Positions 15,306-25,472 of a DNA stretch of 32,395 nucleotides are shown one piece after another. Numbering within the stretch: position 1 is the stretch's first letter; each line of letters opens with the position of its first letter. A program made the translations under genes and the position numbers. The stretch spans positions 1 through 32,395 of the forward strand of contig JAURME010000036.1 of the NCBI GenBank assembly GCA_030830865.1. The letters run 5' to 3'. The notes under the pieces are model-generated. The model worked only from the letters and a program-made list of their open reading frames with translations. It was not told the origin of the DNA and made no database searches. Source of the stretch: Candidatus Nanopelagicales bacterium (lineage in GTDB: Bacteria; Actinomycetota; Actinomycetes; S36-B12).

Positions 15306-15321
15306 TAGGGTGAAGCCCGTG
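15306..15321 (+). promoter_or_regulatory. -10 element and leaderless start of the LacI-family gene
   Basis: TAGGGT at 15306-15311 fits TANNNT and ends eight bases before the GTG at 15319. The upstream GTG at 15310 lies inside this hexamer, which argues for the later start. The 8-bp palindrome CCCTAGGG (15303-15310) overlaps the element. Confidence 0.4.
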
Positions 15322-16353
15322 GCGGAGAATCCTCGGGCGCGTCTGGCGGATATCGCGGAGCAGGCGGGAGTCAGCGAGGCGACAGTCTCCCGCGTGCTGA
15401 ACGACCGCCCAGGGGTCTCGACCACGACGCGGCAGGCCGTGCTCACTGCCCTGGACGTACTGGGCTACGAGCGGCCGATCCGGCTGCGCGGGCAGTCCGG
15501 TCTCGTCGGACTCATCGTCCCTGAGCTCGAGAACCCGATCTTCCCGGCGTTCGCACAGGTCATGGAGACCCTCCTCGCGCAGTACGGCTACACGCCGGTC
15601 CTGTGCACGCAGACGCCCGGCGGCGTCACCGAGGACGAGTACGTCGAACTGCTGCTCGACCGTGGGGTCGCCGGAATCATCGTCGTGTCCGGGCTCCATG
15701 CCGACGCCACCGCCGACCACGCTGCCTATCGCACGCTCGTCGACCGCGGTCTGCCGCTCGTCCTCGTCAACGGCTATGCCGAGGGCGTGGATGCTCCCTT
15801 CATCTCCGATGACGACGTCACCGCGATGGATCTTGCCGTGTCGCATCTGACGTCCATGGGGCACCGACGTATCGGTCTGGCCGTCGGACCGCAGCGCTTC
15901 GTCCCGGTCGTACGAAAGCGGGGGGGCTTCATCGCGGCGATGGGCCGACTCACGGGGATCAACGGGGAGGAGGCCGCGGGCCTGGTGACCCATTCACTGT
16001 TCACCGTCGAGGGTGGACAGGCCGCGGCGCATCACCTCCTCGGACTCGGAGTCACCGCAATCGTGTGCGGCTCAGACCTCATGGCTCTGGGGGCGATCCG
16101 GACAATCCGGCAGCGCGGTCTAAGAGTCCCCGAGGACGTGTCCGTCGTCGGGTACGACGACTCCCGCCTCATCGCCTACACAGACCCGCCGCTGACCACC
16201 GTGCGCCAGGCGGTCGGGGAGATGGGCACTGCTGCCGTCCAGGCCCTGCTCGACGAGATCAACGGCACACCGGCCCCGCGCGACGAGTTCATCTTCCGGC
16301 CCGAACTGGTCGTCCGGGGATCCACGGGCCCGGCACCGCGAGGTGATGGGTGA
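15319..16353 (+). CDS. LacI-family transcriptional regulator
   Basis: A 344-residue repressor. The N-terminal helix-turn-helix is RLADIAEQAGVSEATVSRVL, followed by the hinge helix region VLTALDVLGYERP. A periplasmic-binding-type effector domain runs from GLVGLIVPELENPIF to the end, with the typical ICGSDLMALGAIRTIRQRGLRVPEDVSVVGYDD variant. Effector is unknown; most family members sense sugars. It is divergent from the DUF4032/antiporter pair and 70 bases upstream of bioY, so either could be its target. No classic LacI operator was identified. GTG 15310 is the alternative start, adding three residues. Confidence 0.92.
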   Translation: MAENPRARLADIAEQAGVSEATVSRVLNDRPGVSTTTRQAVLTALDVLGYERPIRLRGQSGLVGLIVPELENPIFPAFAQVMETLLAQYGYTPVLCTQTPGGVTEDEYVELLLDRGVAGIIVVSGLHADATADHAAYRTLVDRGLPLVLVNGYAEGVDAPFISDDDVTAMDLAVSHLTSMGHRRIGLAVGPQRFVPVVRKRGGFIAAMGRLTGINGEEAAGLVTHSLFTVEGGQAAAHHLLGLGVTAIVCGSDLMALGAIRTIRQRGLRVPEDVSVVGYDDSRLIAYTDPPLTTVRQAVGEMGTAAVQALLDEINGTPAPRDEFIFRPELVVRGSTGPAPRGDG

Positions 16354-16410: not shown

Positions 16411-16426
16411 TAGTGTCCGCGCCATG
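16411..16426 (+). promoter_or_regulatory. -10 element of the bioY cluster (leaderless)
   Basis: TAGTGT at 16411-16416 fits TANNNT and ends eight bases before the bioY ATG at 16424. No Shine-Dalgarno sequence is present. I looked in 16354-16423 for a BirA- or BioQ-type dyad (TGAAC-GTTCA) and found no convincing one. Confidence 0.5.
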
Positions 16427-17035
16427 CGCAGCGACGACTCACAGCCCGGCGGCAGCGCCCGCTGGATGGCCCAGGTCGCGATCTTCGCGGGGGTGATCGC
16501 CGCACTGGGACTCGTGCCGGCCCTTCAACTTCCGGGCATGCCCGTGCCTATCACCCTGCAGACCCTCGGAGTCATGCTCGCGGGTTCCATCCTGGGCGCC
16601 CGCAAGGGCGCAGCCTCGGTGGTGCTCTTCCTGGCTCTGGTGGCCATCGGACTGCCCCTGCTCGCGGGTGGCCGCGGAGGGCTCGGTGTCTTCGCCACGC
16701 CGAGCGTGGGCTTCCTCATCGGCTGGCCGGTCGCGGCGTTCGTCATCGGCTGGCTGACCGAACGTCGCGGCGCCCCCTACATCATTCCGTGGGGCATCGC
16801 CTTCAACGTCATCGGTGGCATCATCGTCATGTATGCCTTCGGACTCGTCGGCATGATGGCGGTCGGCGGCCTGACCGTCGGCGCGGCTGCGATCGCCCTG
16901 CTGCCCTTCATCCCCGGCGATATCGTCAAGGCGGTCCTGACGGCCTTGATCTCCAAGCCCGTGCACGCCTCCTACCCGGGACTGCTGCCCGAGCGGCCTC
17001 GGCCGCGAAGAGATGCGGATGTCGAGGTCGGCTGA
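16424..17035 (+). CDS. bioY: Biotin ECF transporter substrate-binding protein BioY
   Basis: A 203-residue integral membrane S component that binds biotin. The family signature PVPITLQTLGVMLAGSILG lies near residue 45, followed by ARKGAASVVLFLALVAIGLPLLAGGRGGL and GFLIGWPVAAFVIGWL. About six membrane helices are visible; the tail is basic and polar. The ATG at 16424 is chosen over the longer frame from 16343 because the promoter fits it and the extension is not membrane-like. The ATPase and T subunits (bioM, bioN) are encoded 2 kb downstream, after two enzyme genes. Confidence 0.93.
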   Translation: MRSDDSQPGGSARWMAQVAIFAGVIAALGLVPALQLPGMPVPITLQTLGVMLAGSILGARKGAASVVLFLALVAIGLPLLAGGRGGLGVFATPSVGFLIGWPVAAFVIGWLTERRGAPYIIPWGIAFNVIGGIIVMYAFGLVGMMAVGGLTVGAAAIALLPFIPGDIVKAVLTALISKPVHASYPGLLPERPRPRRDADVEVG

Positions 17036-18026
17036 CCCGGTCGACCCGCTGGACTCGGGCGACCCGGTCCTGGCCTTCCGGCGTGCGCGGGATGAGGGAC
17101 GCATGCTGTCCCTGCGCACGTCCGGCACAACCGCGCGTCCGCGTCGGGTGCTGCGGACGACGGACTCGTGGGATCGCTCTTTCGACCATGTCTCGAATCT
17201 GACCGGGATCGACTCGAGGTCGCGGGTCTGGGTGCCAGGGCCGACGTCGGCCACGATGAACCTGTTCGCTCGTGTCCACTCCGATGCGGTGGGGGCGGTC
17301 GTCACCGATGATCCTGACGACGCGACGCATGCGCAAGTGACGCCACTGAGCCTTGATCGCGCGCTGCGTGACGACCTGCTGGCCGAGGGCACCACGGTCA
17401 TCGTCGCCGGTGATGCGCTGCCCGAGTCCCTGCTGGCGCGGGCGCATGGGGCGGGTCTTGCCGTGCACCAGTACTACGGGGCCGCGGAGCTGTCCTTCGT
17501 CGCCTGGGCGGACGACGGCCGCACCCTGCGTCCCTTCCCGGAGGTGGAGATCAGTGTCGACGACGACGTGATCTGGGCGCGCTCGCCGTACCTGTGCGAG
17601 GGATACGACGACACCGACGGTCCGCTGCGGTGGAGTGACGAAGGCGCGGCCACTGTTGGTGACCGCGGGACATGGATCGACGGTGTGCTGGCGGTCTGGG
17701 GTCGGAGTGAGGACGCCGTCACCGTCGCCGGCGTCACCGTCCTCGTCGCCGATGTCGAGGGCGCCCTGCGCGACAACGCGGCGGGGCAACTGACGGTGGT
17801 AGGGCTCCCCGACAACCGCCTCGGTTCGGTCCTCGCCGCCGTGGTCACCGATGCGCGGGACGTCGAACGGCTGAGAGCTGCGGCGGGCCAGATGCTCGAT
17901 CCGGCCCAGCGTCCGAGTCACTGGTACGTGGTGGAGGACCTGCCGTCGACGCCTGCCGGCAAACCGGACCGCGCTCGCATACGAGCGATGCTCTCGGAAC
18001 GGCCACCCATGAGGGTGGCACGGTGA
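17019..18026 (+). CDS. Short AMP-forming acyl-CoA ligase-like protein
   Basis: A 335-residue member of the ANL adenylating family. It has the P-loop LRTSGTTARPRRV (TSGTT at 34-38), adenine motif YYGAAE (152-157), ribose-binding D216 in GDRGTW, hinge R229 in WGRSEDAV and the catalytic Lys K315 in STPAGKPDRAR. The usual N-terminal subdomain of about 120-150 residues before the P-loop is almost absent; size is closer to short MenE-type ligases than to 500-residue fatty-acid ligases. The substrate is unknown. The ATG at 17019 has GAAGAG six bases upstream and overlaps bioY; ATG 17013 is an alternative. Its place between bioY and bioMN, with a thiolase, suggests activation of an acyl precursor related to biotin (compare Bacillus yhfT), which is inference. 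Confidence 0.8.
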   Translation: MSRSADPVDPLDSGDPVLAFRRARDEGRMLSLRTSGTTARPRRVLRTTDSWDRSFDHVSNLTGIDSRSRVWVPGPTSATMNLFARVHSDAVGAVVTDDPDDATHAQVTPLSLDRALRDDLLAEGTTVIVAGDALPESLLARAHGAGLAVHQYYGAAELSFVAWADDGRTLRPFPEVEISVDDDVIWARSPYLCEGYDDTDGPLRWSDEGAATVGDRGTWIDGVLAVWGRSEDAVTVAGVTVLVADVEGALRDNAAGQLTVVGLPDNRLGSVLAAVVTDARDVERLRAAAGQMLDPAQRPSHWYVVEDLPSTPAGKPDRARIRAMLSERPPMRVAR

Positions 18027-18050
18027 CGACGGTGCCACCCTCATGGGTGG
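18003..18050. repeat. Perfect 19-bp inverted repeat at the ligase/thiolase junction
   Basis: CCACCCATGAGGGTGGCAC (18003-18021) and its exact reverse complement (18032-18050) are separated by 10 bases. Each arm is itself a small dyad (CCACCC-4-GGGTGG). GGGTGGCAC followed by GRTGACG also recurs directly at 18013-18028 and 18045-18060 (one mismatch). The left arm lies in the last codons of the ligase gene and the right arm in the spacer before the thiolase. No T tract follows. Confidence 0.85.
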
Positions 18051-18062
18051 CACGATGACGTT

Positions 18063-19199
18063 GTGACCATCGACCCGCGGCCTGTCATCGTCGCCGCGGC
18101 ACGGACCCCGATCGGCACCGCTGGAGGCGCCCTACGAAACCTCACTGTGGAGCAGCTCGGAGCGCCGGTTGTCGCTGCCGTCGCCGGTGCGTTTCCCGAC
18201 ATCACGGTCGACGGTGTGCTCATGGGCAACTGCATGGGCCCCGGGGGCAATGTCGCGCGCGTTGTGGCTCTGGCCGGAGGCCTCCCGGAGGTGGTCTCAG
18301 CGGTCACGGTGGACCAGCAGTGCTCGAGCGGCCTGGAGGCCGTGGCACTGGGTGCCGACAGGGTGATGTCCCGTGGCAACGGTGTCATCGTCGGGGGTGT
18401 GGAGTCCGCGTCGACGGCACCCGTCCGCCACTGGCGCGAGTCCGACGGGACGGAGGGCCAGGCCTACGACCGCGCCCCCTTCACCCCGACCGACCGGCCG
18501 GACCCTGAGATGGGTGAGGCCGCGGACGATGTCGCGACCATGAAGGGCATCACACGGGAGCGGCAGGACGCGTACGCGGCGCGGTCGCACGAGCGCGCGG
18601 TGTCGAGTCAGCAGTCGGGCATCTTCGCGGACGAGATTGTGGACGTGGCGGGGGTCCGTGTCGACGAGCGGCCCCGTGACGGCATGACTCTCGAGCGGCT
18701 GGCCCGCTTTCCCGCTGCCTTTCGCGAGGGGGGCACGGTGACGGCTGCGAATTCCTGCGGGGTCAACGACGCCGCTGCGGCCCTGTTGATGGTGCCGGGC
18801 ATCGAGCAAGCTGCGAAGAGCGCGCCGGGCCTGCGCCTGGTGGGCTGGGCGTCGTCCGGCGTCGACCCCGCGACCCCCGGCCTGGGGATCGTCCCCGCGG
18901 CCACTCGAGCCTTGGCGCAGGCCGGGCTCACCTGGGCCGACATGGACGTCATCGAGTTCAACGAGGCGTTCGCCGCCCAGATGCTGGCGTGCGCGGATGA
19001 ACTCGGCATCGATGACGAGCGCATCTGCTCCCAGGGTGGGGCGATCGGTCTTGGTCATCCCTGGGGTGCGTCGGGTGCCGTGCTCATGGTGCGCCTCTTC
19101 GCGCAGCTCGTCACGCAGGGCCGGGGGCAGCGGGGCATCGCTGCGATCGCCGGCGGCGGCGGTCAGGGTGTTGCGGTGGTGGTCGAGCGATGCCGGTAG
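18063..19199 (+). CDS. Thiolase-family protein lacking the second catalytic cysteine
   Basis: A 378-residue thiolase-fold protein. Present are the nucleophile C87 (VDQQCSSGLEA), the oxyanion N300 (EFNEAFAAQML) and H332 (GGAIGLGHPWGASG). In the C-terminal motif where thiolases read CxGGGxG, this protein reads AGGGGQG, so the acid/base Cys is replaced by A363. Other family landmarks such as GTVTAANSCGVNDAAAALLM are near normal. Normal acetyl-CoA acetyltransfer would be impaired, so a changed reaction is possible. GTG 18063 is preceded by no clear ribosome site. The last 10 bases overlap bioM. Position after an AMP-ligase and within a biotin uptake cluster parallels Bacillus yhfS. Confidence 0.88.
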   Translation: MTIDPRPVIVAAARTPIGTAGGALRNLTVEQLGAPVVAAVAGAFPDITVDGVLMGNCMGPGGNVARVVALAGGLPEVVSAVTVDQQCSSGLEAVALGADRVMSRGNGVIVGGVESASTAPVRHWRESDGTEGQAYDRAPFTPTDRPDPEMGEAADDVATMKGITRERQDAYAARSHERAVSSQQSGIFADEIVDVAGVRVDERPRDGMTLERLARFPAAFREGGTVTAANSCGVNDAAAALLMVPGIEQAAKSAPGLRLVGWASSGVDPATPGLGIVPAATRALAQAGLTWADMDVIEFNEAFAAQMLACADELGIDDERICSQGGAIGLGHPWGASGAVLMVRLFAQLVTQGRGQRGIAAIAGGGGQGVAVVVERCR

Positions 19200-19882
19200 T
19201 CGAGGTCTCGGGCGTCTCCCACACATTTGGTGAGGCGTCTGCGCGGCGCACGGTGCTGCAAGACGTGGACGTCCGCTTCGACGAGCAACGCGTCGGGATC
19301 ATCGGGGCGAACGGATCGGGCAAGAGCACGTTCGCGCGCCTGCTGAATGGTCTGATCGTCCCGACCGAGGGATCGGTCACGGTCGACGGACTGACCACAG
19401 CGCGACACGGCAGGGAGATCCGCCGCCGCGTGGGGTTCTGCTTCACGGACCCCGATGCCCAGATCGTCATGCCGACGGTCGGCGAGGACGTCTCTTTCAG
19501 CCTGCGCTCGACGGATCTGACGAAGGAGCAGATTCGGATCCGCGTTGACGACATCCTCGGGCGTTTCGGCCTTGAAGGGCTCGTCGACCATCCCTCCCAC
19601 CTGCTCTCCGGTGGGCAGAAGCAGTTGCTCGCGCTCGCGGCCGTGCTCGTGACAGAGCCGGCACTCGTCATCATGGACGAGCCGACGACCCTGCTCGACC
19701 TGCGCAACGCGCAGATGATCGGCGATGTCGTGGCAGGCCTGGACACGCAGGTCGTCCTGGTGACGCACCACCTCGACCTGCTGGACCGCTTCGATCGCGT
19801 GCTCGTCTTCGACGAGGCGAGACTCGTGTGCGATGCGCCGCCAGGCCAGGCGATCGACTTCTACCGACGGCTCATGTCATGA
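19190..19882 (+). CDS. bioM: Biotin ECF transporter ATPase BioM
   Basis: A 230-residue ABC ATPase of the energy-coupling-factor type. Walker A is IGANGSGKSTF, the Q-loop region FTDPDAQIVMPTV, signature LLSGGQKQLLALAAVL, Walker B ALVIMDEPTTLLD and switch His in LVTHHLDLL. FTDPDAQ is the Q-loop form typical of CbiO/BioM ATPases. It powers BioY-BioN biotin uptake at the inner face of the membrane. The ATG overlaps the thiolase end by 10 bases and its stop overlaps bioN by four (ATGA). Confidence 0.93.
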   Translation: MPVVEVSGVSHTFGEASARRTVLQDVDVRFDEQRVGIIGANGSGKSTFARLLNGLIVPTEGSVTVDGLTTARHGREIRRRVGFCFTDPDAQIVMPTVGEDVSFSLRSTDLTKEQIRIRVDDILGRFGLEGLVDHPSHLLSGGQKQLLALAAVLVTEPALVIMDEPTTLLDLRNAQMIGDVVAGLDTQVVLVTHHLDLLDRFDRVLVFDEARLVCDAPPGQAIDFYRRLMS

Positions 19883-20478
19883 ACGATCTCGGTCTCTACC
19901 TGCCCGGAACCTCATGGGTGCATCGGCTGCCGGCTGGGGTGAAACTCGCGGCCCTGGTGCTCCTCGGTGTCGCATCGATCCTCATCGACGGTGTCGTCAC
20001 TGTCACCGCCGGAGTCGCCCTGATGCTCGTGCTGTACGGCATCGCCGGATTCACCCCAAGGCTCGCTTGGCGGCAGGTGAAGCCGCTTCGGTGGATCCTG
20101 CTGTTCATCGTCGCGTTCCAGTGGTGGGCCCGTGGCTGGCAGTCGGCCGTTGATGTCGTGGGTGTGATCGTCCTTCTCGTTCTCGCGGCCGCGCTCGTCA
20201 CGTTGACGACGAGGACGAGCGCCCTTGTGGATGTGATCATCGCGGTGCTGCGTCCGCTGCGCCCGCTGCGAGTGCAGCCCGAGCGCGTGGGACTCCTCAT
20301 CGCTCTGGGAATCCGAGCGGTGCCTATCGCAGCCGGCTTCTCGAACGAGGTGCGGGACGCGCAGCGCGCCCGAGGTCTCGGCGCCAGTCCCCGGGCCTAT
20401 GCCGCCCCGCTCATCGTCAAGTCCCTTCGCCACGCGGACTCGGTCGGCGAGGCGCTCGTGGCCCGTGGGCTTGACTGA
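19879..20478 (+). CDS. bioN: Biotin ECF transporter transmembrane protein BioN
   Basis: A 199-residue EcfT-type membrane protein with about five hydrophobic segments. The cytosolic coupling helices carry the two Ala-Arg-Gly motifs of EcfT proteins: ARGLG (in DAQRARGLGASPRAY) and ARGLD at the C terminus. The N-terminal YLPGTSWVHRLPAGVKL is also typical. It connects BioM to BioY. The ATG at 19879 forms an ATGA overlap with bioM; the in-frame upstream extension to 19828 is inside bioM. The gene ends 10 bases from a convergent dehydrogenase gene, with no visible terminator. Confidence 0.92.
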   Translation: MNDLGLYLPGTSWVHRLPAGVKLAALVLLGVASILIDGVVTVTAGVALMLVLYGIAGFTPRLAWRQVKPLRWILLFIVAFQWWARGWQSAVDVVGVIVLLVLAAALVTLTTRTSALVDVIIAVLRPLRPLRVQPERVGLLIALGIRAVPIAAGFSNEVRDAQRARGLGASPRAYAAPLIVKSLRHADSVGEALVARGLD

Positions 20479-20488
20479 GGTGTGGTGA

Positions 20489-21379
20489 TCAGCCGCCCGG
20501 CCGGATCGGGGGACGCTGCCCGACGAGGAAGCGCAGAAGGTCGGCCATGTCGGTCTCCCCGAACCCGGCCTCCCGAGCGGCGGCAACCTCGGCGGTGACG
20601 CCATCGAGGGCTCGCAGCTTCAGCCCTAGATCACTGGCCAGGCCGTCGATCAGTCGAAGGTCCTTCCCAGTGAGGTCGAGGGACATCGCCACGGGGGCGT
20701 CCTCCGACAGGAACACACGCTCCTTGTAGGCCAGGTAGGGCGCGCCGACCGAACTGGACCGCAGCACGCGGTAAGCCATCTCCGGGTCGATGCCGGAGCG
20801 GGTTGCGAGGGCCATGCCCTCGGCCACGGCGCTGTTGAGGCTGTGGACCACGAGCACGGAGGCCAGCTTCATCGCCTGCCCGCGACCGGCCTCCCCGAGG
20901 TGGACGACGTTCTCGGAGAAGGCCTCGAAGGCCGGCCGGGCGCGTTCCACCGCCTCGTCGGAACCGCCGGCGAGGACGACCAGGCTGCGCGACTGAACCG
21001 AGGCGACGCTGCCGGCGACCGGGCTGTCCACGAACTCGACCCCGGCCACCCGGTAGGCATCGGTCAGGCGGGCTGTGGTCGCGGCCCCGCTCGTGGCCAT
21101 GTCGCACACGACGACCTCGGCTGGCAGGGCGGCCAGGAGCGTGGGTTCGAGGAGGACCTGCTCGGTGTGCTCACCGAGGGCCAGGACGCAGAGCACGATC
21201 TGCGCCTCACGGACCGCCTCCGCGGGTGTGTCGGCGGCTCGGCAGCCGAGGCGGTCGGCCAGGGAGCTGGCACGCTCCCCGGTGCGGTTCCACAGGACGA
21301 CGTCGTGTCCGGCATCGATCAGGCGTTCGGCCATGGCCGATCCCATGCGCCCGGTTCCCAGAACGGTCACGTTGGTCAT
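20489..21379 (-). CDS. 3-hydroxyisobutyrate dehydrogenase-family oxidoreductase
   Basis: A 296-residue beta-hydroxyacid dehydrogenase. The Rossmann loop VLGTGRMGSAMAERL (6-20) and the catalytic Lys K171 in GRGQAMKLASVLVV are present. Two family landmarks differ: the Asn four residues after the catalytic Lys is V175, and the substrate loop DxPVSGG reads DSPVAGS. Both suggest a non-standard substrate. The cofactor is NAD or NADP (not resolved). Its ATG overlaps the hyuB1 stop (ATGA), so it is the last gene of the pucR-hyuA1-hyuB1 operon and may reduce or oxidise the product of that pathway. Confidence 0.85.
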   Translation of the reverse strand: MTNVTVLGTGRMGSAMAERLIDAGHDVVLWNRTGERASSLADRLGCRAADTPAEAVREAQIVLCVLALGEHTEQVLLEPTLLAALPAEVVVCDMATSGAATTARLTDAYRVAGVEFVDSPVAGSVASVQSRSLVVLAGGSDEAVERARPAFEAFSENVVHLGEAGRGQAMKLASVLVVHSLNSAVAEGMALATRSGIDPEMAYRVLRSSSVGAPYLAYKERVFLSEDAPVAMSLDLTGKDLRLIDGLASDLGLKLRALDGVTAEVAAAREAGFGETDMADLLRFLVGQRPPIRPGG

Positions 21380-23403
21380 GCGGCACCTCCAGTCTCCAGG
21401 GGAAGATCGTTCCAGTGCTCGGCAGCTCGCCGCTGCATGAGCTCCCTGTTCTGCTCAGTCGTCCGGGCGAGGAGCTCACCGGAGCCCCAGTCGAGGATCA
21501 CGCCGTACTGGCGAAGGCAGTCGAGAGTGTCGACCTCGCCCATGCGGTATCGGCGTGCCACGGTCTCCGCGTCGACCTCGAGCCACCGCCGACGCTCGGC
21601 ACGGATGTCGCTCCTGAGACGAGCGGTCGCCTCCACGTCGACGGCCCAGCGTTCGGCGCCCCCTGACTCGGTCACGTTCGTCTCGATGACGACGACTCCA
21701 TAGTCCTTGGCAGCGCGCTCGACGGATACGTAGCCGTCGATGACGTCTTCCAGCACGAGAGCGGTGATCCGGTCCAAGGGGTCCCCGTATCCGCCACCGC
21801 CGGCGCTCGCGCGGGAGAAGACGTCCCCGGACACGAGTTCCTCGTTGGAGAAGATGGCGCCGAGGTATCGGCGCTCGGGGGAGTCCGGATTGAGCCACAG
21901 GCCCTGGGGGGTCGACGGCAGCCCGCCGTTGATGCCCCACGGGACACTTCGCTCACGGTCGCAGCAGTAGGACATGACGGTCGCTGCACTGTCGGCCAGT
22001 TGCACGCCCTTCGCCACCCCGCAGCCTCCACGGAACTCCCCGGGGCCGCCGCTGTCCTGGACGATCCGGTGGTGGGTGGTCACGACCGGATTGAGTCGCT
22101 CCTGGCCCTCCACCGGTTGGGCGGCGAAGTTGGCGCCGAAGAGTGGCGAGGCGGCAGTGGCACCATCCCGGCCGTTCCTGGCGCCCCAGCCACCGACATT
22201 CCAGTCGTACCACATGAAGATGTCCCGATCCCGGGTGCGCATGTCGCGGCCGCCGACCAGCAGGTACTCCAGATTGAAGGAGCAGGCCATGGAACGCTCG
22301 GGAAGGATCTGCGACCACAGTTCGAACAGCGCATTGACCAGTTTCTCGAAGACGCCGGAGACGAATCCGCTCACCGCCGTGGGCCACGCGGCATTGACGA
22401 CGGTGCCGGGTGGTCCGAGCTCGACCTCGATGGCACGGTAAAGGCCAGCATTGACCGGCACCTCGGGGAAGAAGTGCTTCGTTCCGGCCAGGAGCCCGGA
22501 CAGGGTCGACCCGTACGTCGAGTTCATGAACGTCGACACGGCCGGTCCCGAGCCGGTCAGGTCGTAGCGCAGTCGGTCCCCGTCGATGGTCAGGCTCACG
22601 GTGACAGGTACGAGGCCCTCCCCAAGGGAGGGATCACCGTCCAGGAAGTCTGAGGTGGTCCACGTTCCGTCGGGGAGTTCGGCAACGCGGGCCTGCAGCA
22701 GACCGCTGGCATGGTCGATGACCTCCTGGAAGGCCTGGGTGACCACGTTGCGGCCGTAGCGGCCGACGAGGCGCAGGACCTCGCGTTCGCAAACCCTCGT
22801 CGCCTCCGCCTGAGCGTTGAGGTCGCTCGCGTTGTCCTGCGGCGCGCGGGTGTTGCCGACGATGAACCCGACGACGTCCTGCTGCAGGATCCCCCGCGAC
22901 CAGACGCGCAGAGGTGGGATTCTCAGACCCTCGCCGAAGTGCTCCCGGGCCTTGACATCGAACGAGCCGGGAACGAGGCCACCGACATCGCTCCAGTGGC
23001 CGTTGGCCGTCGCCCAGGCGATGAGATGGTCCTCGACGAAGATCGGTCGGAGGACGCGAACGTCGTTGAAGTGGGTGCCCCCGCTGTACGGATCGTTCGT
23101 GACGAACACGTCGCCGGGATGGATGTCGTCGCCGAAGGCCTCCATCACCGACTGGCACACCAGATGGTGGGTGCCGATGTGCACTGCGATGTCCTGGTCC
23201 CCCTGGGCGACCGGATTCCCCTCGGCATCGGCGAGGCTGCACGAGAAGTCCTTCGCGTAGATGACGAAGGAGTGGCACGTCATCCGGAACTGCTGCGCCA
23301 TCAGCTCCACGGCGTTCATGAAGGAGTTCCGCAGGATCTCGAAGGTCACCGGGTCGATGGCCCGCTGGCGTCGGCTGCGGGGGCGCCGGGTCGTCGTGGT
23401 CAT
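21376..23403 (-). CDS. hyuB: Hydantoinase B / acetone-carboxylase-alpha family subunit (paralog 1)
   Basis: A 675-residue HyuB-family protein. It starts with the family segment DPVTFEILRNSFMNAVELMA, then CHSFVIYAKDFSCSLADAEG, TNDPYSGGTHFNDVRVLRP, GHWSDVGGLVPGSFD, FMWYDWNVGGWGARNGRDG and a Gly-rich end SAGGGGYGDPLDR. HyuB works with an ATP-using HyuA in hydantoin, oxoproline, lactam or ketone metabolism. ATG 23403 overlaps the hyuA1 stop (ATGA), so the subunits are co-translated; the longer frame to 23439 is inside hyuA1. Its C-terminal tail (GYVSVERAAKDYGVVVI, LDWGSGEL) is shared with the second HyuB at 29318. The specific substrate cannot be read from the sequence; the gene symbol is a family label. 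Confidence 0.88.
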   Translation of the reverse strand: MTTTTRRPRSRRQRAIDPVTFEILRNSFMNAVELMAQQFRMTCHSFVIYAKDFSCSLADAEGNPVAQGDQDIAVHIGTHHLVCQSVMEAFGDDIHPGDVFVTNDPYSGGTHFNDVRVLRPIFVEDHLIAWATANGHWSDVGGLVPGSFDVKAREHFGEGLRIPPLRVWSRGILQQDVVGFIVGNTRAPQDNASDLNAQAEATRVCEREVLRLVGRYGRNVVTQAFQEVIDHASGLLQARVAELPDGTWTTSDFLDGDPSLGEGLVPVTVSLTIDGDRLRYDLTGSGPAVSTFMNSTYGSTLSGLLAGTKHFFPEVPVNAGLYRAIEVELGPPGTVVNAAWPTAVSGFVSGVFEKLVNALFELWSQILPERSMACSFNLEYLLVGGRDMRTRDRDIFMWYDWNVGGWGARNGRDGATAASPLFGANFAAQPVEGQERLNPVVTTHHRIVQDSGGPGEFRGGCGVAKGVQLADSAATVMSYCCDRERSVPWGINGGLPSTPQGLWLNPDSPERRYLGAIFSNEELVSGDVFSRASAGGGGYGDPLDRITALVLEDVIDGYVSVERAAKDYGVVVIETNVTESGGAERWAVDVEATARLRSDIRAERRRWLEVDAETVARRYRMGEVDTLDCLRQYGVILDWGSGELLARTTEQNRELMQRRAAEHWNDLPLETGGAA

Positions 23404-25472
23404 GTCGTGCCCACCTCGCTGATCCGCAGATTGGCCCACTCGTCGACGATCAGGCGGTGGCTCGACGGGACGATCGTTGTGGCGTCGGCCTGCTCGATGA
23501 CCGCCGGGCCGTCGATGCGCTGTCCCGTGCGCAGCCGCGCACGGTCGTAGACGGGGGTGGGGACTGGTTCGGCCGAGGAGTCCATGGCGACGGCCCGCTG
23601 CCCGCTCGGAGTGGGGCGGGTCGTCACCGGCTTCTGACGGCGTGCCTGCACCTTGGGCAGACGCCCGATGGCAGTGAGGTTCAACTGGTAGAGCTCGACC
23701 GGGGCATGGGGATCACGGTAGGCGTACTGGGCCTGGTAGGAGTCCTGGAAGACCTGGACGGCGGAGCCGAGGGCTCCCTTGCCTCGTCCCATCGGGATGT
23801 CCAAGGAGCGCCATTGCCCGCGGTAGCGCATGCTCACGGCGCGTTCGAGGACGATGTCCGGATCGCTGACCCCCTCGAATTCCAGACGCTCCCGCGCCTC
23901 GGCCTCGATCTCCCGGAAACGCTCCTCGAGGGTCTGCGGGTCGATGTCGCTGGCGATGCCCTGGTACATCGCCGTGAAGTCGTGCCGGATGTCGACGAGG
24001 AGACAACCGAGGGCCGAGGTGGTCCCGGGATTGGGCGGGACGATGACGGTCGGGATCCCGAGTTCCTGCGCGATGGCGACCGCATGCATGGGACCGGCAC
24101 CGCCGAATGCCACGAGGGGCGCACTGGGGGACAGTGACCTGCGCGACTGGCGCAGCAGGCGTGCGGCACTCGCCACCGCGGAGTCGGCCACCTGGATCAT
24201 CGACGAGGCCGCCTCAAGGCTGGTCAGCGTGAGAGGCCCGGCCACCCGCTCATCGACGGCCTGCCGGGCGGCTGCGACATTCAGGTCGACGACCCCGCCG
24301 GCGAGGCTGGTGCTCAGCCGTCCCAGCAGCAGGTTGGCGTCGGTGTTGGTGGGCTCGGTGCCTCCGCGCAGGTAGGACGCGGGCCCCGGATGCGCCCCAG
24401 CCGAACGAGGCCCACTGCGCAACGCTCCGGTCTCGTCGACCCAGGCGATGGTTCCGCCGCCTGCACCGATCGTCGCAAGCTCGACTCCGGGAAAGGAGAT
24501 CGGATGGCCGTACTCCACCCACCACTGCTTGGTGACTCGCACCTGTCCGTCCTGCACCAGCGTGATGTCCGAACTCGTGCCTCCCATATCGAGGGCGATC
24601 GCGTCCTGGAAGCCGCATTGCTGCGCGACGTGGCGAGCGGCCATCGCGCCTGCGGCGATACTCGAGGCGGCGAGGCGCAGGGGGAAGGCCTGGGCAAGGG
24701 GAGCGGTCATCGAGCCCCCACCGGAGTGCATGAGGAGAAGGTCCCCGCGGTAACCGGACTCCCTGAGGTAGTCCGCGAGTCGGCCGATGTACCGGGTGAC
24801 CAATGAGCCGAGGAGAGCGTTGGCCACCGTGGTGGAGAAGCGCTCGTACTCGTTGATCTCCGGCAGAACCACGCTGGAGAGGCTGACGTGGATGCCTGGA
24901 TCGACCTCCTCGAGGATGGCCCGCACCTCCTCTTCATGTCTGGAGTTCGCGTAGGAGTTGACGAAGCACACGGCAACTGTCTGGGCACCTCGGGCGGAGA
25001 CCTCCTCGGCGATTGCGACGGCCTCGGCGCGATCGAGGGGTTGGAGCACCCTTCCGGAGTAGTCGATTCGTTCGGTCACCTCAAAGCGGTCCCGCCGGCG
25101 GATGTACGGAGGGGCGACCTCGTGATACGCGTCCCAGGCGTCCTCCTGGGTGCCGTCGCGGATCTCGATCACGTCGCGGAAGCCGCGTGTGGTCACCAGC
25201 GCTGCCGGCGGGAAATCGCGCATGACCAATGCATTGGTGGTGATGGTGGTGCTGTGGATCACCTGCTGCACGGATGCGAAGTCCAGGTTCAGTGATTCGA
25301 TCGCCCTGATGACCGATGCCAACGGGTCGTCTACCGATGACGGGACCTTCGCGGTGAGCAGTTCGCCAGTGGAGTCGTCCAGGACGCACACGTCGGTGAA
25401 CGTCCCGCCCACGTCGATGGACACTCGCTGACGTGGGCCGCGCGCTCGGCGACGTCGGGGGGTCTCGGCCAT
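23400..25472 (-). CDS. hyuA: Hydantoinase A / oxoprolinase family ATP-dependent subunit (paralog 1)
   Basis: A 690-residue HyuA-family protein. The Hydant_A_N domain starts with SIDVGGTFTDVCVL (18-31), the phosphate loop of an actin-like ATPase fold. The Hydantoinase_A domain has ALDMGGTSSDITLV and TIGAGGGTIAWVDETG. VAFGGAGPMHAVAIAQELGIP precedes the C-terminal domain. IEIRDGTQEDAWDAYHEV is nearly the same in the second HyuA (27267). These subunits phosphorylate the substrate or an intermediate with ATP. The ATG at 25472 is one base after the pucR stop, and the N terminus is Arg-rich. With hyuB1 it forms one functional enzyme. Substrate unknown. Confidence 0.88.
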   Translation of the reverse strand: MAETPRRRRARGPRQRVSIDVGGTFTDVCVLDDSTGELLTAKVPSSVDDPLASVIRAIESLNLDFASVQQVIHSTTITTNALVMRDFPPAALVTTRGFRDVIEIRDGTQEDAWDAYHEVAPPYIRRRDRFEVTERIDYSGRVLQPLDRAEAVAIAEEVSARGAQTVAVCFVNSYANSRHEEEVRAILEEVDPGIHVSLSSVVLPEINEYERFSTTVANALLGSLVTRYIGRLADYLRESGYRGDLLLMHSGGGSMTAPLAQAFPLRLAASSIAAGAMAARHVAQQCGFQDAIALDMGGTSSDITLVQDGQVRVTKQWWVEYGHPISFPGVELATIGAGGGTIAWVDETGALRSGPRSAGAHPGPASYLRGGTEPTNTDANLLLGRLSTSLAGGVVDLNVAAARQAVDERVAGPLTLTSLEAASSMIQVADSAVASAARLLRQSRRSLSPSAPLVAFGGAGPMHAVAIAQELGIPTVIVPPNPGTTSALGCLLVDIRHDFTAMYQGIASDIDPQTLEERFREIEAEARERLEFEGVSDPDIVLERAVSMRYRGQWRSLDIPMGRGKGALGSAVQVFQDSYQAQYAYRDPHAPVELYQLNLTAIGRLPKVQARRQKPVTTRPTPSGQRAVAMDSSAEPVPTPVYDRARLRTGQRIDGPAVIEQADATTIVPSSHRLIVDEWANLRISEVGTT

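Follow-up and report, generated by a model that had tools for sequence, protein, structure and literature searches.

We analyzed a stretch of 32,395 nucleotides (the window), covering positions 1 to 32,395 of contig JAURME010000036.1 from the actinobacterial assembly GCA_030830865.1 (Candidatus Nanopelagicales bacterium), a 2.49 Mb draft genome in 176 contigs that is ~95% complete. The window carries a rightward run of five plus-strand genes (16424-20478), in which an adenosine monophosphate (AMP)-forming ligase and an atypical thiolase are inserted among genes for biotin uptake. The features of this run are as follows:

16424..17035, plus strand: bioY, biotin-binding S component of an energy-coupling factor (ECF) transporter, 203 residues, first gene of the run (PF02632, E 5.2e-38)
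17013..18026, plus strand: short AMP-forming acyl-coenzyme A (CoA) ligase, 337 residues (AMP-binding_C 9e-7, AMP-binding 7e-6; NF005877, NF005797)
18002..18051, no strand: inverted repeat with 23-nt arms and a 4-nt loop, spanning the ligase stop codon and preceding the thiolase gene
18063..19199, plus strand: thiolase-fold enzyme without the second catalytic cysteine, 378 residues (TIGR01930, 335 bits, above cut-off)
19190..19882, plus strand: bioM, ECF ATPase, 230 residues (ABC_tran, 3.8e-26; TIGR04520, 191 bits, under the cut-off of 315)
19879..20478, plus strand: bioN, ECF T component, 199 residues (CbiQ, PF02361, 3.8e-14)

The identity of every gene is backed by Pfam and NCBIfam models, and all five were found in the place and on the strand given by a first-pass annotation made from the sequence alone. 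Neighbouring genes share 23, 10 and 4 bp with one another, except for ligase and thiolase, which are separated by the sole gap of 36 bp. With BioY, an ATPase and a T protein encoded in one cluster, BioY-BioM-BioN is, by gene content, an ECF biotin transporter, having the three proteins of BioMNY and differing by the two enzyme genes placed between bioY and bioM. The inverted repeat lacks a T run and has no further copy in the window genome; it could represent an attenuator or a processing hairpin.

The adjacency of BioY, an acyl-CoA ligase and a thiolase recalls yhfU-yhfT-yhfS of Bacillus subtilis, as the first-pass annotation had pointed out, and yhfS-yhfT of Staphylococcus aureus, which are likewise tied to biotin. 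In S. aureus, bioY and yhfS-yhfT undergo biotin-dependent repression by BirA, and the BirA-controlled ligase and thiolase of both species have been described as putative enzymes (PMC6391492, PMC11089781). For the window ligase, NF005797 is the second-best NCBIfam model (89.2 bits, under the cut-off of 518) after NF005877, a 362-position ligase model; for the window thiolase, NF005212 ranks second (308.8 bits, under the cut-off of 498). The window proteins are, as judged from these scores, homologous to the NF005797 and NF005212 types without being members by the curated cut-offs. The same two models are the best or second-best for bioY-operon ligases and thiolases in other phyla, and the proposed kinship is thus upheld by shared models as well as by Firmicutes versions with BirA operators. 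The Bacillales loci analyzed here show the same gene order, BirA operators and the loss of a catalytic cysteine, Cys378. Unlike yhfUTS, the window has dedicated bioM and bioN genes after the pair, its ligase lacks the N-terminal part, and no BirA operator was found at the window.

The truncation of the ligase concerns ~130 N-terminal residues that are present in most NF005797-type relatives. The motifs LRTSGTTARPRR, YYGAAELSF, GR and PAGKPD are kept, the hallmarks of an AMP-forming acyl-CoA ligase (TSGTTARPRR, YYGAAE, GR231 and GK317) are in place, and residues S37, G38, G156, E159, G230, R231, G316 and K317 are invariant with full-length relatives. In the first ATP motif, Arg replaces Lys. 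The predicted structural model of the ligase is fair, with a predicted local distance difference test (pLDDT) score of 86.

The thiolase departs from its canonical relatives at a catalytic position. In thiolases, Cys378 deprotonates acetyl-CoA during condensation and protonates the leaving group during thiolysis. The window protein keeps the nucleophile C87 and H332, but has Ala at the position of Zoogloea Cys378. Both the nucleophilic Cys (C89) and the GHP-motif His (H348) are invariant among the 138 distinct thiolases of the family, whereas Cys378 of the CxGGGxG motif is replaced in 137 of 137 (Gly in 79, Ser in 45 and Ala in 13; the 138th thiolase ends before this column). The Cys378 position lay outside the patterns used in our thiolase scan, and it is retained by four canonical control thiolases, three of which are encoded in the window genome. 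In addition, the residue two after the catalytic His is aromatic in the family (GHPY, GHPW or GHAY) and L or V in canonical enzymes. The predicted model (pLDDT 95.6) superimposes on 4xl3 (VIA Z 57.7, root-mean-square deviation (rmsd) 1.9 over 371 residues) and on canonical thiolases (Z about 57, rmsd 1.8-2.1 over ~370 residues, 35-42% identity). The full-length fold, Cys89 and His348 are therefore common to this family and the canonical Zoogloea biosynthetic, FadA and PhaA thiolases, whereas the G/S/A substitution at Cys378 and the aromatic residue after His set it apart. Judged from the alignment, the Cys378-less thiolases are a distinct subfamily, and the simple reading as an ordinary beta-oxidation thiolase was rejected because Cys378 is absent throughout. 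Ketosynthases that use malonyl donors work without this residue, and we infer that the window-type thiolase may be a decarboxylating ketosynthase. Retention of the nucleophile Cys and His with loss of Cys378 is also compatible with mere acyl transfer, in which no C-C bond would be formed: the ligase would make biotinyl-CoA or another thioester, and the thiolase would move or hydrolyse the acyl group, for example trapping imported biotin or freeing it from conjugates.

Within the bacterial family of the window (85 genomes from 14 genera), the ligase is present in 14 genomes. Because 69 of the 85 have bioY, the pair is an accessory module, found in about a fifth of the bioY-bearing family genomes. 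Wherever the contig of a family carrier was long enough, the ligase sits between bioY and the thiolase, with bioM next, and the order bioY-ligase-thiolase-bioM is shared with more distant actinobacteria (L052-L055). In a further locus, L057, the short stretch examined showed no bioY, and the 4 kb examined of L060 contain the ligase-thiolase pair but no bioYMN. Locus L058 (503-3859) reads bioY-ligase-bioM-bioN with no thiolase gene, and the ligase can thus occur alone in the transporter operon.

To survey named genomes, we queried with the thiolase alignment alone, using neither ligase nor bioY, and kept the best matches to this one query. At least 80 named loci came out of the scan. They belong to Actinobacteria, Firmicutes, Alpha- and Gammaproteobacteria and other groups, including Arthrobacter and relatives, Kocuria, Cryobacterium, Streptomyces, Bacillus, Paenibacillus, Salibacterium, Sinorhizobium, Shinella, Azospirillum, Erwinia and Serratia, as well as Marinimicrobia and cyanobacterial metagenome-assembled genomes. 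For the best 80 thiolase loci, the ligase was adjacent in all 80, bioY lay within 5 kb in 71, and bioM/bioN in 66. The arrangement is bioMNY-ligase-thiolase in rhizobia, Azospirillum and Streptomyces and bioY-ligase-thiolase in Firmicutes; in Arthrobacter, ligase-thiolase is convergent with bioYMN. Ligase and thiolase distances were correlated over 94 loci (r 0.91), a value reached in 0 of 1000 permutations. In a sample of 199 genomes drawn evenly from the order of a Bacillus carrier, a ligase lay directly upstream of all 29 best thiolases, and the next locus examined was a canonical thiolase without ligase. Furthermore, 18 additional Bacillales stretches, two of them repeating loci already analyzed, showed the ligase adjoining or near the thiolase in 18 of 18 and bioY in 17 of 18. 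Two Bacillales loci, L209 (2871-6124) and L210 (2892-6145), have lower-scoring ligases divergent from bioY-thiolase, and neither has a BirA site by the strict pattern. A chance neighbourhood or contig artefact was ruled out, since the same order recurs in the family and in other actinobacteria and the pair stands beside bioY in several phyla. The survey thus bears out the first-pass proposal of a conserved, uncharacterised function linked to biotin, and ties the pair to bioY in Actinobacteria, Firmicutes and beyond. Absence of the two genes from nearly all related bioYMN clusters, which that annotation had named as counting against it, holds in part within the family, where the pair is found in ~20% of the genomes that possess bioY, and clearly does not hold across bacteria.

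The signs of BirA control were confined to Firmicutes. Of 13 Firmicutes loci, 10 have a BirA operator no more than 300 bp ahead of their first gene, with an expectation of 0.00 from dinucleotide shuffles, and each is the only such site in its 11-kb stretch. Likewise, a BirA site was found in 15 of the 18 Bacillales stretches, nearly always beside the bioY start. Since BirA represses when biotin is plentiful, Firmicutes operons with such an operator are predicted to be expressed under biotin shortage. The biotin protein ligase of the window genome, at 279 residues, has no room for an N-terminal helix-turn-helix DNA-binding domain. In the window family, the regions in front of bioY share no palindrome, and the alphaproteobacterial loci contain no BioR box (TTATMKATAA). 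Perfect copies of a BioQ-like palindrome (TGAACN3GTTCA) stand close upstream of bioY at L009:808-820, L054:3230-3242 and L114:6580-6592, and not in the window; this suggests that a TetR-type BioQ regulator acts in some of the actinobacterial carriers, three palindromes being too few to build on.

We then asked which carriers can make biotin themselves. Neither bioB nor bioF was found in the window genome or in nine further family carriers (10 of 10 tested), and the window genome does encode a biotin protein ligase. Over all carrier genomes considered, bioB is lacking in 21 of 37 and present in 16; outside the window family, bioF calls depend on a strict cut-off. The bioB-less carriers include Sinorhizobium medicae, Shinella, Azospirillum and three Paenibacillus, and S. 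meliloti 1021 is, among some rhizobia, a proven biotin auxotroph (PMC8914248). Two Paenibacillus genomes (G495 and G500) combine a BirA operator, a ligase-thiolase-dehydratases-ketoreductase cluster and the lack of bioB. Without bioB, only molecules that already hold both biotin rings can become biotin, and therefore the product of the pair is not a BioB-requiring precursor in those cells. If the pair serves biotin supply in bioB-less cells, its substrate must contain both rings.

These findings bear directly on pimelate supply, where the pair would make or activate pimeloyl-CoA, for example from glutaryl-CoA, or another biotin precursor for BioF. A ligase combined with two-carbon condensation could yield a C7 diacid, and 16 of the 37 carriers have bioB; the other 21, together with the absence of bioF from all ten family carriers tested, make this reading very improbable. 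Pimelate supply as a general function was thus ruled out, and the pimelate-like precursor considered in the first-pass annotation does not fit a window genome without bioF and bioB. A precedent for two-carbon elongation in the service of biotin, compared here by description only, is BioZ, an alphaproteobacterial ketosynthase that makes pimeloyl-acyl carrier protein and feeds bioF-A-D-B; the window-type pair differs in occurring without bioB and in being thiolase-derived.

Additional evidence comes from genes that accompany the pair in other lineages. A FabG-like short-chain dehydrogenase/reductase (SDR) is a neighbour in 10 Firmicutes loci, and a different SDR directly follows the thiolase in L121 and L130. 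MaoC/FAS1_DH dehydratases occur as two tandem genes in Paenibacillus and as one fused gene in Salibacterium. In 15 proteobacterial loci, the neighbour is a medium-chain dehydrogenase/reductase (MDR) protein that closely resembles human mitochondrial 2-enoyl thioester reductase (E 1e-27 to 2e-31). A 4HBT thioesterase stands beside the ligase in Erwinia and Serratia and also within rhizobial clusters. Among the remaining neighbour families, thioesterase and dehydratase domains are the most frequent, and the 25 families listed include no acyl-CoA dehydrogenase. Two-carbon elongation of a free acid requires a ligase, a condensing enzyme, a ketoreductase, a dehydratase, an enoyl reductase and a thioesterase, and taken over all lineages the pair and its companions would provide this set.

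The companion genes help to weigh the remaining alternatives. Acyl transfer would suit the many clusters that consist of ligase and thiolase alone, as well as the locus with a ligase and no thiolase, but leaves the ketoreductase, dehydratase and enoyl-reductase-like neighbours unexplained, and we consider it unlikely. Somewhat less likely still is a biotin-sparing route of fatty-acid elongation, operating when biotin, and with it acetyl-CoA carboxylase, is low: scavenged fatty acids would be activated and then elongated by the thiolase together with ketoreductase, dehydratase and enoyl reductase, by-passing malonyl-CoA. BirA repression, the presence in auxotrophs and the elongation-type neighbours all fit such a route. 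However, malonyl-free condensation needs deprotonated acetyl-CoA, which is unlikely without Cys378, a thioesterase would undo fatty acyl-CoA, and the coupling to bioY persists where the BirA site is absent, suggesting that BioY brings the substrate. Breakdown of the biotin side chain by beta-oxidation, for carbon or to lower the biotin level, had also been raised at the outset. Beta-oxidation begins with a ligase and ends with a thiolase, and SDR and MaoC proteins could supply the middle steps. Against this stand the repression of the operon by biotin in Firmicutes, where the regulator site is visible, the frequent auxotrophy of carriers, and the occurrence of an enoyl-reductase-like protein and a thioesterase, rather than an acyl-CoA dehydrogenase, among the listed neighbours. 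Moreover, thiolytic thiolases use Cys378. We therefore judge degradation improbable. Acyl transfer is the strongest of the alternatives, followed by fatty-acid sparing, then degradation and lastly pimelate supply.

Taken together, import, control by scarcity, independence of BioB and a set of enzymes for elongation and release point to the re-elongation of chain-shortened biotin. We thus favour, at a little short of an even chance, a model in which the operon imports shortened biotin (bisnorbiotin) and extends its side chain back to biotin; substrate, two-carbon donor, direction and each reaction are inferred. BioY-BioM-BioN would import a biotin-like acid, and the ligase would join CoA in thioester linkage to a biotin catabolite with a shortened chain. 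The likeliest such catabolite is bisnorbiotin, whose side chain is two carbons shorter than that of biotin. The thiolase, lacking Cys378, would act as a ketosynthase adding two carbons, probably from malonyl-CoA by decarboxylation, a donor proposed because ordinary thiolases use the absent residue to deprotonate acetyl-CoA. Ketoreduction, dehydration and enoyl reduction would then yield biotinyl-CoA, which a thioesterase would cleave to supply biotin protein ligase with free biotin. For these last four steps, the window operon would depend on housekeeping enzymes; in other lineages, genes for them adjoin the pair. Bisnorbiotin, which accounts for 13-23% of the total biotin in urine (PMC9106636), is a natural candidate substrate. 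The broader proposal, a cross-phylum salvage that serves auxotrophs by re-elongating bisnorbiotin, perhaps also tetranorbiotin, with a decarboxylating Cys378-less thiolase, we hold tentatively and a shade less firmly.

Several observations weigh against re-elongation. We know of no indication that BioY binds bisnorbiotin, and Asn316 is also absent in 12 of the 138 family thiolases. No single locus carries the entire elongation set, the window cluster having ligase and thiolase only, and gene proximity is not proof of a shared pathway. SDR and MaoC enzymes serve beta-oxidation too, and the absence of acyl-CoA dehydrogenase refers only to the 25 neighbour families listed. Enoyl reductase is just one reading of the MDR protein, because its best PDB match is a putative quinone reductase (3gms), the human enoyl reductase being next-best. 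Finally, the strict BirA pattern was found in none of the 24 non-Firmicutes loci scanned, proteobacterial and actinobacterial ones among them, and no BirA operator was seen by eye in the window upstream region.

In the open literature, of which our coverage was incomplete, no earlier report of bacterial bisnorbiotin salvage was found, and we do not claim priority. If the model is true, the biotin catabolites that hosts and soil microbes release serve as a source of the vitamin, biotin auxotrophs could live on a common biotin breakdown product, genome-based predictions of auxotrophy change, and a thiolase subfamily with altered chemistry exists. If it is false, an explanation is still needed for the loss of Cys378 and for the linkage across phyla. 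With these findings, the role of the yhf-type enzymes is narrowed to one question, namely whether bisnorbiotin can replace biotin by means of these two genes.

Two neighbouring regions of the window were also inspected. Upstream of bioY, at a distance of 70 bp and on the same strand, lies a LacI-family regulator gene (15310-16353; RbsR-like models), which also precedes bioY in one congener (L006) and was not seen in several others. Downstream of bioN, a 3-hydroxyisobutyrate-dehydrogenase-like gene (20489-21379) stands beside two large adjoining open reading frames on the minus strand (21376-25472) that by eye resemble hydantoinase/5-oxoprolinase B and A subunits.

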